DNA of 64,000 nt from Glycomyces terrestris (GTDB lineage: Bacteria > Actinomycetota > Actinomycetes > Mycobacteriales > Micromonosporaceae): NCBI RefSeq assembly GCF_003933745.1, contig NZ_RSEB01000005.1, positions 374,475 through 438,474 of the forward strand, written 5' to 3'. Below the pieces are notes generated by a model, which was not told the DNA's origin, did no database searches, and worked only from the letters and a program-made list of their open reading frames with translations. Numbering within the stretch: the first letter of the stretch is position 1; every line of letters begins with the position of its first letter. Below are positions 27,864 to 32,616 of this stretch, piece by piece. Both the position numbers and the translations under genes were made by a program.

Positions 27864-28898
27864 CTAGGAGAGCTTCTTCTGGACGTCGAAGTCGCGGCAC
27901 AGCGGCCGGTAGCCGATGGCCTCGTTGATCGCGATCATGTGGTCGTTCGACTCGGCGTTCCAGGTGTGGACGTACCGCAGCTTCGGCCGGTACTGGCGCA
28001 GCGCCCGCTGGTTCGCGATCTTGAGGATGGTGCCGAGGCGGTGGCCGCGGTGCCGCTCCTCCACGATCGTGTCGTTCTGGCCGGCGTGGTCCTCGTCGCC
28101 GGGGAAGACGATGATGTCGGTCAGGCCGGCGATCTCGCCGCTCTCGACGTGCCGGACGGCGGCGGCGAGCTGGAGCTGGCCGCGGTCGGCGAAGGTGCGC
28201 TCCTCGTCGCGGACGCGCGCGACGTCGTAGACGGAGGGGCGCATGTCGAGCTCCTCGCCCATGGGCGGGTCGGTGGACATGCGCTGGCGCATGGCGGCGA
28301 CGCCTTCGACGATGTCGTCGGGGGCGTGGTTGACCCACTGGACGAGCTCGTACCCGGCGGCCTTCTCCCAGGCGTCGGCGTAGAGCTTCGCGAGGTGGTC
28401 GTCGTCGACGGCGAAGAGGTCGTTGCGGCGGTGGATCTCCTGGTCGACGACGGCGTAGCCGCGGGCCTTCGCGAAGTGCTGGCCGGCGTGGTCCTGCGGG
28501 GGCGCCCCGTCGAGGGAGTCGGAGGCGAACGCGAGGAACGTGTCGCGGCCGAGTTCGGCGGCGCGGCGCTCGGCGTGCTCGAGGAGCGCGGTGCCGACGC
28601 CCTTGCGGCGGTGGCCGGGGTGGACCAGGATCTCGAAGTTCGCGAGGTGCTGGTTGTCGGTCAGGAAGAAGACGCTCTCGGCGTAGCCGACGACGGCGCC
28701 GTCCACGAGCGCGACGTGCCGCTCGGGCTGGACCGAGGCGGGGTGCAGCAGGAGGCGCAGGCGCTGGAGGGCGGGCCGGGTCTGGGGCGCACCGGGGTTG
28801 TCGTGCGCGTACACGGCCCGCTCGACGTCGATCCAGCCGTCGACCTGTGCGCGGTCGAAGGGATCGATCGGAACGATCTTGATGTCAGGGTTGCTCAC
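27864..28898 (-). CDS. Tandem-domain GNAT N-acetyltransferase
   Basis: A 344 aa protein with two GNAT domains. The first has the acetyl-CoA loop in LVHPGHRRKGVGTALLEHA (about residues 90-108). The second has the degenerate VEERHRGHRLGTILK and the C-terminal HTWNAESNDHMIAINEAIGYRP. Architecture is like mycothiol synthase, but the substrate is unknown. The GTG start has GGGAGG 8 nt upstream, and that site is buried in an 8 bp hairpin. A long structured leader with a terminator precedes it, so expression is probably RNA-regulated. Confidence 0.82.
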   Translation of the reverse strand: MSNPDIKIVPIDPFDRAQVDGWIDVERAVYAHDNPGAPQTRPALQRLRLLLHPASVQPERHVALVDGAVVGYAESVFFLTDNQHLANFEILVHPGHRRKGVGTALLEHAERRAAELGRDTFLAFASDSLDGAPPQDHAGQHFAKARGYAVVDQEIHRRNDLFAVDDDHLAKLYADAWEKAAGYELVQWVNHAPDDIVEGVAAMRQRMSTDPPMGEELDMRPSVYDVARVRDEERTFADRGQLQLAAAVRHVESGEIAGLTDIIVFPGDEDHAGQNDTIVEERHRGHRLGTILKIANQRALRQYRPKLRYVHTWNAESNDHMIAINEAIGYRPLCRDFDVQKKLS

Positions 28899-28905
28899 GC
28901 CCCGA

Positions 28906-28926
28906 CCCTCCCGCATCTCGGGAGGG
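28906..28926 (-). promoter_or_regulatory. Hairpin sequestering the GNAT Shine-Dalgarno site
   Basis: CCCTCCCG and CGGGAGGG form a perfect 8 bp stem with a 5 nt loop (AGATG). The 3' arm contains the GGGAGG ribosome site of the GNAT gene, whose GTG starts 7 nt further on. Confidence 0.6.
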
Positions 28927-28966
28927 CTCGCAAACGAATTTCAGGATGACGCTTGCCAATCGGGGC

Positions 28967-29004
28967 AAAAATGTGCCGGGCGGCCACCCCAGACCGCCCG
29001 GCAC
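28967..29004 (-). terminator. Intrinsic terminator inside the GNAT leader
   Basis: Perfect 11 bp stem GTGCCGGGCGG/CCGCCCGGCAC with a 10 nt loop, followed on the minus strand by ATTTTT. It lies upstream of the GNAT start, so it is either an attenuator or the end of a small RNA. Confidence 0.7.
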
Positions 29005-29086
29005 TCCCCCCGGTTTGGTTTCCCCGTGGCGCCTGCGGTGATGGTCTGGAACCCGGTGGATTCCCGCATCTCCGTGACGCTGCGTA
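28967..29086 (-). ncRNA. Candidate structured RNA: riboswitch/attenuator or small RNA
   Basis: About 120 nt from the predicted start to the terminator. Possible helices are GCGUC (29080-29076) with GGCGC (29033-29029), and UGCGG (29068-29064) with CCGCA (29038-29034). A hairpin GGAAUCC/GGGUUCC with loop ACC (29064-29048) is paired throughout by a U.G wobble, whereas the plus strand would have a C.A mismatch there. That favours the minus strand as the RNA. I do not recognise a known Rfam class. Confidence 0.5.
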
Positions 29087-29092
29087 TCTGCA

Positions 29093-29150
29093 ATATTACC
29101 CACCGCCTCAGCAGTGTCAAGCAGAAACAGGGGTTGCGGCAAATTTTTTT
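29093..29150 (-). promoter_or_regulatory. Near-consensus promoter with UP-like A/T tract
   Basis: On the minus strand TTGACA (29120-29115) and TAATAT (29098-29093) are 16 nt apart, the closest match to a housekeeping sigma promoter in the window. A run AAAAAAATTT (29150-29141) sits at about -55 to -64, where an UP element would act. Predicted start near 29086. Confidence 0.65.
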
Positions 29151-29280
29151 CCGTGGCCCCTGCCACGGGGGTTGCACGGGTGCTCCGGGCCCAAACCCCG
29201 GCGTGTCGCGCGCCTCGTTCGGGGCCCGCCGCGTGGTCGGGCCCACGGTGCCGTTTCACCGGGGCCCATGGGGCGGCGCG

Positions 29281-29293: not shown

Positions 29294-30739
<1,446 letters not shown>

Positions 30740-30829: not shown

Positions 30830-31711
30830 TCAGACGACCGCCTTCATGATGACCGACCGGGAGATCTTGGCGAGCTGCTCGACGATCGTGACGCCCTTGG
30901 CGTAGTCGGGGGCCTTGCTCGTGAGGATGGCCATCCGCACGTCGTGCTTGTTCGGGATGCTGATGTAGCCGACGGAGTGGACGACCCACAGGCCGCCGAG
31001 GGACGAGCGGGAGTCCCAGCCGTTCTTGAGCCACACCGTGTCCCCGCTGTTCGCGGCGGCCGTGACGCCCCAGTCCTGCGAGTCGACCACGGCGCCCAGC
31101 AGGGAGCGGGCGTAGTCGACCTTCTCCTGGTTGAAGTAGCCCGTGGCGGTGAGCATGTTCAGGACGCGGAGCTGGTCGGGGGCGGTGGTCGTGGTGAGGC
31201 CCCAGCGGCAGTCCGCGGACGCCGCCGTGTTCTTGAGGCCGTAGCGCACGTGCGCGGCCTTGAGCGCGTCGCAGCCGCCGAGGAAGTTGTAGAGCTTCGT
31301 CGTGTTGTCGTTGTGCGACTGGGTGATCATCGTCCGCGCCCATTCCTTCTTCTCGGCGGGGATGGACGAGACCTTGGAGTACTTCTCCAGGAGCATCGCG
31401 AGGATCTCCATCTTCACGAGCGACGCCGTGTCGTGGATGCGGCTCTTGTTGGTCGTGATGACGCGGTTCGCGCGCCCGACGATGATCGACGCCTGGGTCT
31501 GCGTCGCGGTGGTCGCCAGGTACGCCTTGGTGCGTTCGGTGAGTTCGACGGCCAGCTCGGTGTCGGTCGGGCCGGCCGCCCAGGCCGTCGTGCCGACCCA
31601 GGCACTGGCTCCGGCGAGGGCGATGGCGCCCGGGATCGCGGCGCGGAGGACCGCGCGGCGGGAGGGCCGGGGACGGGGGGTCGGTTCTGCCTGGGGGGAT
31701 TGCAGAGTCAT
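30830..31711 (-). CDS. Tat-exported serine hydrolase, class A beta-lactamase fold (paralogue 1)
   Basis: A 293 aa exported protein. The twin-arginine motif SRRAVLR at residues 17-23 precedes a hydrophobic stretch ending near AWAAG. Active-site elements are S97-x-x-K100 (SLVK), S132-H-N134 and K229-N-G231 (in place of KTG). The general-base Glu of true beta-lactamases is not evident, so a peptidase or peptidoglycan-related hydrolase is as likely as drug resistance. It follows its paralogue by 11 nt; AGGAAG lies close to the ATG. Confidence 0.8.
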   Translation of the reverse strand: MTLQSPQAEPTPRPRPSRRAVLRAAIPGAIALAGASAWVGTTAWAAGPTDTELAVELTERTKAYLATTATQTQASIIVGRANRVITTNKSRIHDTASLVKMEILAMLLEKYSKVSSIPAEKKEWARTMITQSHNDNTTKLYNFLGGCDALKAAHVRYGLKNTAASADCRWGLTTTTAPDQLRVLNMLTATGYFNQEKVDYARSLLGAVVDSQDWGVTAAANSGDTVWLKNGWDSRSSLGGLWVVHSVGYISIPNKHDVRMAILTSKAPDYAKGVTIVEQLAKISRSVIMKAVV

Positions 31712-31722
31712 GCGCTTCCTAG

Positions 31723-32616
31723 CTATTCGTACTGGATGACGTCGCGGGCGATCTTCGCGATCTCCTCCACCACCGGGACGCCTTCGACGTCGTCCACCGC
31801 GCCGCTGGTGAGGACGGCCATGGCGACGGGGTCGTCGCCGTCGCCGCCGAGGACGCCGAGCGAGTTGACGACCCAGAGGCCGTCGAGCTGCGACTCGACG
31901 TCCCAGCCGTTCTTGAGCCAGACCGTCTCGCCTTCGCTCGCGGCGGCCGAGACGCCCCACGCCTGCTCCTCGATCACCGTGCCCATGAGCTCGCGGGCGA
32001 GGTCGGTCTGGGCGGCGTCGAGGACGCTCTCGTTGAGGGCGAGACCGGTGAGGAGGAGCTGGTCCGGGGCGCTGGTCCAGCCGACGCCCCAGCGGCCTTC
32101 GGCATCCGGGGTGGTGTCCTCAAGACCGTACCGCCCGTGCGCGGCGACGAGTGCGTCGACTCCGCCGAGGTAGTTGTAGAGGGTGGTCGCGGAGTCGTTG
32201 TGGGACTCGCGGATCATGCGTTCGAGGGCCTCGCGGTGGTCCTCGGGGATCGCGTCCACCGAGCCCCAGTACTCCATCGTCATGAGCATGATCTCGACCT
32301 TGACGATCGAGGCGGTGATGTGGGTCTGCCCGGGGTTGTAGTGGAGCCGCATGTCGCCGCGCTGCACGGCGACCGAGGCCTCGATCTTCGTGCCGCTCTC
32401 GGCGAGGTGCCCGTCGATCCGGGTCGCGAGCTCCGCTTCGAGCTCCTCGCGGGAGGGCCCGAAAATCGACTCGAGGCCGTTCTCGGAGGCGTTCGCCGCG
32501 ACCGTGGCCACGGCTCCGGCGCCGACCAGGGCGGCCGCGGCGGGCACGCCGAACCGCAGCAGGTTGCGACGGGAGGGGCGGAGCAGACGGGAGGAGGGTT
32601 CGCTTCGGCGGATCAT
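31723..32616 (-). CDS. Tat-exported serine hydrolase, class A beta-lactamase fold (paralogue 2)
   Basis: A 297 aa paralogue of the next gene. Tat motif SRRNLLRFG at residues 15-23; S103-x-x-K106 (SIVK), S138-H-N140 and a KNG triad in VWLKNGWD are all conserved. The strong match of ESHND..TTLYN-LGG-DAL and WLKNGWD between the two shows tandem duplication. TAGCCT lies 7 nt before the ATG with no ribosome site, so the pair probably begins with a leaderless message. Confidence 0.8.
   Translation of the reverse strand: MIRRSEPSSRLLRPSRRNLLRFGVPAAAALVGAGAVATVAANASENGLESIFGPSREELEAELATRIDGHLAESGTKIEASVAVQRGDMRLHYNPGQTHITASIVKVEIMLMTMEYWGSVDAIPEDHREALERMIRESHNDSATTLYNYLGGVDALVAAHGRYGLEDTTPDAEGRWGVGWTSAPDQLLLTGLALNESVLDAAQTDLARELMGTVIEEQAWGVSAAASEGETVWLKNGWDVESQLDGLWVVNSLGVLGGDGDDPVAMAVLTSGAVDDVEGVPVVEEIAKIARDVIQYE

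Follow-up and report, generated by a model that had tools for sequence, protein, structure and literature searches.

The minus-strand sequence between the divergent ahcY gene and a GNAT acetyltransferase gene in the window (the whole stretch of DNA that was analysed, 64,000 nucleotides from Glycomyces terrestris) raises the question of whether the structured RNA it appears to encode controls the next gene or is a gene in its own right. The sequence-only reading had taken it for a riboswitch- or attenuator-type leader, in which termination and masking of a Shine-Dalgarno (SD) site would act in series on a mycothiol-synthase-like acetyltransferase. Having compared the locus with its relatives, we consider it probable that the stretch is instead a free-standing small RNA (sRNA) gene of about 119 nt, with its own promoter, fold and terminator, whose product would act in trans. 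The basis for the gene itself is comparative sequence analysis: the promoter, the helices, the motif, the end of conservation at the terminator and the independence from any one downstream gene. The features of the sRNA gene are as follows:

29150-29141, minus strand: A/T tract AAAAAAATTT, UP-element-like, 5′ of the sRNA promoter
29093..29120, minus strand: sigma-70-type promoter TTGACA-16-TAATAT of the sRNA, from a consensus scan and conservation (TTGACA 29120-29115, spacer of 16 nt, TAATAT 29098-29093)
28967..29085, minus strand: small RNA gene, predicted at about 119 nt, from the predicted +1 to the end of the T tract
29029..29084, minus strand: 5′ helix P1, which encloses a variable inner hairpin; over 47 sequences, 91.4% of the helix cells are paired
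29005..29017, minus strand: near-invariant 13-base linker motif CAAACCGGGGGGA, present at 62/62 loci
28967..29004, minus strand: terminator hairpin and T tract, paired in 99.6% of cells over 47 sequences

Both ends of the gene are predicted from its own signals, the 5′ end from the promoter and the 3′ end from the terminator. The A/T tract and the promoter, which had already been picked out on this strand from the letters alone, are indeed present at the coordinates given above, and a consensus scan of 6 kb returned TTGACA-16-TAATAT as the sole promoter-like site, against 0.2 in shuffled sequence (a second row of the scan shows this site again, read with a spacer of 17 nt). Across the 22 Glycomyces genomes, mean pairwise identity from the -35 to the -10 element is 0.89 in an oriented alignment, and the A/T tract region (29141-29155) shows an identity of 0.79 versus 0.47 over positions 29161-29182. 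In a broader set of 62 loci, comprising the 22 Glycomyces loci and 40 others of the family, TTGAC was found 29-30 nt 5′ of the covariance model start at every locus examined (L092 and L094 entered this count, that of the motif and the alignment A4 described below after trimming by 21 nt). Judged by the promoter spacing, the +1 would lie near A29085, the A of ACGCAGCG, which directly precedes the 5′ helix.

The compact RNA and the terminator hairpin with its ATTTTT, both part of the original description, also proved sound: the fold has a z-score of -3.67 (121 nt), or -4.22 when the downstream stretch is included, and beats all 200 of 200 shuffles. The terminator-like hairpin (29004-28973) comprises 13 pairs including a U.G pair, 11 of them G-C, and is followed by ATTTTT. 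A scan of 6 kb yielded 4 terminator-like sites versus 1.6 in shuffles, which taken alone is weak support, but the conservation of the terminator is not weak. This was analysed in the alignment A4, which holds 47 sequences (9/22 Glycomyces and 38/40 others, L066 and L084 being excluded) and in which 96.4% of cells over all stems are paired. In most rows the 5′ helix consists of CGC, a bulged A and GCGU pairing with ACGC-GCG, and the length of the inner hairpin is free to vary. Two-sided changes occur in 12/18 pairs when the 5′ helix and the 3′ stem are taken together and in 9/11 pairs of the terminator stem. Covariation in relatives had been named as a check on the RNA, and the helices do covary: the score is 0.294, against 0.134 for shuffled and at most 0.120 for slid alignments, with the reservation that the structure was taken from one A4 sequence and the rows are related, so that the numbers favour the structure and the slid control gives the fairer comparison.

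Between the two hairpins, the linker motif has a mean predicted unpaired probability of 0.63; the A residues have the highest values, and some of the C and G residues low ones. The sRNA of one genome (G048, genus g28) carries the one-base variant CCAACCGGGGGGA, so the motif CAAACCGGGGGGA is not absolutely invariant. The T run is less general: at least five T within 10 nt 3′ of the hairpin are found in 20/22 Glycomyces loci and in only 6/40 of the others, and the 3′ end of the RNA is for this reason uncertain at the non-Glycomyces loci. As a separate observation, the terminator loop TCTGGGGTGG (28984-28993) occurs at 29/62 loci, namely the 22 of Glycomyces and seven (L069-L075) from three other genera including Stackebrandtia; since it is kept there though the loop varies elsewhere, it is a possible second contact site. 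The alignment also bears on the idea that the locus encodes a small protein, which the open reading frames crossing it in the window might suggest: the best start-codon column is common to only 21/47 sequences and the hairpin lengths vary freely, and we regard this explanation as scarcely credible.

Does this RNA then act on the gene that follows it in the window? The features that bear on this are the following:

27864..28898, minus strand: GNAT acetyltransferase, 344 aa from GTG 28898
28926-28906, minus strand: 8 bp hairpin CCCTCCCG/CGGGAGGG, just 5′ of the GNAT GTG 28898
28905..28933, minus strand: the GNAT gene's own promoter-like pair TTGCGA-17-GAGGGT, with equivalents in 22/22 Glycomyces

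The arrangement itself invites the leader interpretation, as promoter, structured RNA, terminator and GNAT gene stand in series on one strand in 22/22 Glycomyces, with the GNAT gene about 184-584 nt 3′ of the RNA start. Against it, conservation halts at the terminator: among the 22 Glycomyces the 5′ domain has a mean pairwise identity of 0.75, the linker one of 0.86 and the terminator one of 0.97, but the value falls to 0.38 over the next 33 nt and is 0.43 across the GNAT promoter stretch. In 11 of these genomes the match from the DNA search stops where the terminator ends (query positions 161-168), and in the other 11 it continues towards the GNAT gene. Upstream of each GNAT start, TTGC, a spacer of 17-18 nt and a NANNGT hexamer were found in 22/22 Glycomyces versus 0.14 in shuffles (the pattern, like that used for ahcY below, was composed after viewing the sequences, and the shuffles preserve single-base composition only), and the start codon follows the hexamer by about 6-9 nt. 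At this distance the elements read as a separate GNAT promoter with a leaderless start: the GNAT gene is probably leaderless and lies outside the transcription unit of the RNA. The 8 bp hairpin, which the sequence-only reading had proposed to mask the SD site, is present in the window, where it overlaps the -10-like element of this separate promoter, but as a regulatory platform it is not kept, stems of 8 or more pairs being found upstream of the GNAT gene in only 2/22 Glycomyces, in one of them at a different position. Furthermore, the GNAT gene was found beside the RNA at the 22 Glycomyces loci only, with no tblastn match at the 40 non-Glycomyces family loci. What survives of the leader proposal is a structured and conserved RNA on the minus strand that has a promoter and a terminator of its own; control of the GNAT gene by a riboswitch or attenuator we now consider very improbable. 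The label of the gene also has to be narrowed, as Pfam matches are to a GNAT domain, only around residues 57-122, and do not bear out its description as mycothiol-synthase-like.

A comparison with known RNAs places the free-standing sRNA further. Scanning against Rfam 15 at gathering scores, the second check that had been suggested, gave no match to any known family in the window or in the 18 of 40 fetched relatives covered, SAH and SAM riboswitches included, and permissive scans at two loci gave matches only far below threshold. There is a likeness in form to the 6C RNA (RF01066), which is also short and intergenic and combines hairpins with a conserved single-base run. The 6C RNA has C-rich loops, whereas here the run consists of G and lies in the linker between two hairpins; RF01066 was unmatched in the window and in 22/22 Glycomyces at E<=0.001. 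This result also led us to reject a partnership between the two RNAs through G6/C6 pairing, as 6C was not found in any of the 22 genomes. Like Ms1 (scr3559), the RNA is a widespread actinobacterial sRNA that can be identified by its conserved neighbouring genes. According to PMC9130861, Ms1 of S. coelicolor is about 230 nt long and lies beside a HAD hydrolase gene, Ms1 is reported as undetected in Glycomycetales, and Ms1 and 6S RNAs are recognised by a minimum length of about 160 nt and, for Ms1, by the HAD-hydrolase neighbourhood; the predicted RNA of about 119 nt beside manA and ahcY differs on both counts. A riboswitch or terminator leader is likewise a structured RNA that ends in a terminator-like hairpin with a gene downstream, but here there is no fixed downstream gene, and the downstream genes mostly have promoter-like elements of their own. 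No description of the RNA was found in the literature searched, which comprised sources other than subscription journals and preprints.

The RNA is widespread within one family. A DNA search of 41 genomes recovered it in 22/22 Glycomyces and gave only short, weak matches in the other 19 (best E 0.007). A covariance model (R1) matched 263/300 genomes of the sampled GTDB family at E<=0.01, a count that contains the 22 genomes used for its training, and a broader model (R2), with which 20 of the 37 genomes missed by R1 were retried, matched 12/20; at least 275/300 family genomes sampled thus contain the RNA, the training sequences of both models being part of the counts. Eight of the retried genomes were matched by neither model, and an exact search for CAAACCGGGGGGA in these eight and in G048 found it in 0/9. 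The sampled family (f1) is presumably Micromonosporaceae; in the NCBI taxonomy, Glycomyces stands under Glycomycetales. Outside the family the signal is lost: in a sample of the order, R1 matched 26/29 family genomes and 1/171 others (G400, partially, E 0.007), and R2 matched 29/29 family genomes and 0/171 others at E<=0.01, with five non-family genomes giving matches at E 0.016 to 0.091. In a class sample of 296 genomes, three family genomes were matched and one other, at E 0.01 and with the motif absent. Searches over more than 40 genomes used stricter filters and scored few candidates per genome, so that rare distant homologues may have escaped these counts. As homologues outside the family we rejected both G574/L120, which is without the motif, and G400, whose one partial R1 match was not accompanied by an R2 match at E<=0.1. 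Among the R1 matches listed there is one per genome, except in G162 and G223 with a second match each; the second copy in G162 lies on another contig, within 8121 bases of identical sequence, and is probably an assembly duplicate.

The conserved neighbours of the RNA are manA and ahcY, the latter being divergent in the window:

29294..30739, plus strand: ahcY (S-adenosylhomocysteine hydrolase), divergent neighbour

One or the other gene lies within the fetched stretch at 62/62 loci, where the 40 non-Glycomyces loci had been picked from top-scoring hits, usually one or two from each genus, and are not a random sample. The orientation of the RNA and the gene downstream of it vary between loci, and the adjacency to manA or ahcY is kept. 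At the other family loci, the gene 3′ of the RNA is ahcY, another gene or an opposite-strand manA (downstream open reading frames were a crude, composition-based pick and disagree with tblastn at L087). Where manA lies just downstream on the opposite strand (L086, L087 and L091), the RNA cannot serve manA as a leader. In case of ahcY the question is less simple, as the RNA could be a cis leader that senses, for example, S-adenosylhomocysteine or a related compound and that ceased to act as a leader wherever ahcY is divergent. The constant company of ahcY or manA speaks for this, as does the position of the RNA, which at 24/62 loci is co-directional with ahcY and lies within 400 nt 5′ of it; at two of these, L082 and L084, the gap measures only 31 nt and holds no -10-like element, and there the RNA may have a secondary role as an ahcY leader. 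At the remaining 38/62 loci, however, ahcY is co-directional but further away (5, for a total of 29 co-directional), divergent (25) or outside the fetched locus (8). The close co-directional gaps vary between 31 and 233 nt in length and contain a -10-like element of their own in 20/24 cases versus 3.8 in shuffles (those without one are L076, L077, L082 and L084), and the motif is identical where ahcY is divergent. In view of this, and of the missing Rfam match to SAH or SAM riboswitches noted above, we judge an ahcY leader to be unlikely as a general explanation.

This leaves the free-standing sRNA, with its own promoter and terminator, a conserved structure and no fixed downstream gene, and the question of what its linker motif contacts. 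We searched the 22 Glycomyces genomes, a single genus, for complements of a 14-mer with one mismatch. Near-complements were found in 22/22, the RNA's own antisense strand included, and the reversed pattern used as a control had matches in some genomes too; no family-wide mRNA target was found by this search. The commonest other near-complement lies on the antisense strand of 23S rRNA (15/22 Glycomyces; five sites have identical flanks, and one locus was confirmed as 23S), which means that 23S rRNA and the sRNA share similar letters: the Glycomyces 23S rRNA (L167) contains CAAACUGGGGGGA, with 12/13 letters of the motif. Mimicry of 23S rRNA is not supported, since the 23S rRNA of Stackebrandtia G041 reads GAAAAGCUGGGGGA at this point and its sRNA retains the motif. 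An orthologous near-complement with one mismatch in 14, around base 1501, was found in two of the 22 Glycomyces genomes (L170 in G004 and L192 in G009); it lies a few tens of bases 5′ of an ATG that is preceded by a GGGA-type stretch and opens a gene beginning MTVYAFELHFSAPPGE. This gene is a weak lead as an mRNA target. Repeated complements at L182/L196 and at L179/L180 were rejected as not orthologous, no tRNA being found in L182 or L196; the complements at L194/L195 are orthologous, but the gene at this site seems to be encoded on the opposite strand.

With this weak lead in 2/22 genomes as the only mRNA candidate, we rate a protein partner almost as probable as an RNA partner. The linker could then be a protein site in an RNA that works as a ribonucleoprotein (RNP) or as a decoy and not by base pairing, a possibility that we hold with considerable doubt. 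It would suit a motif that barely changes over deep divergence, its A-rich half included, and the outcome of the complement search; this search, however, was confined to one 14-mer pattern with one mismatch in one genus, and there is no protein candidate.

For the free-standing sRNA as a whole, we infer from sequence that its transcription follows the prediction and that it works in trans via the linker motif. A sigma-70-type promoter would start the RNA at about A29085; the transcript would fold into the 5′ helix, the CAAACCGGGGGGA linker and the strong 3′ hairpin, the latter serving in the window as an intrinsic terminator that ends the RNA at about 28967; the linker would contact a C-rich site in a partner RNA or a protein; and the downstream GNAT gene would be a separate unit. 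Most likely, judging by these comparisons, the locus represents a new family within a familiar kind of sRNA. More speculatively, and with rather less conviction, it may be a lineage-wide housekeeping RNA class at manA/ahcY, whose near-invariant CAAACCGGGGGGA serves one essential, slowly evolving partner such as an undiscovered RNP protein, the ribosome or a global regulator, and not drifting mRNA targets. Its presence in most of the family genomes sampled and a 13-base motif that stays steady as the helices drift suggest an important uncharacterised regulatory or structural RNA, for which this locus provides one precise gene and one motif for genetic dissection. The case also illustrates how an adjacent sRNA gene can mimic a leader of the next gene.

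Beyond ahcY in the window, two adjacent minus-strand open reading frames (30830-32616) encode similar proteins, serine-hydrolase-like by eye only, and are apparently a tandem duplication.
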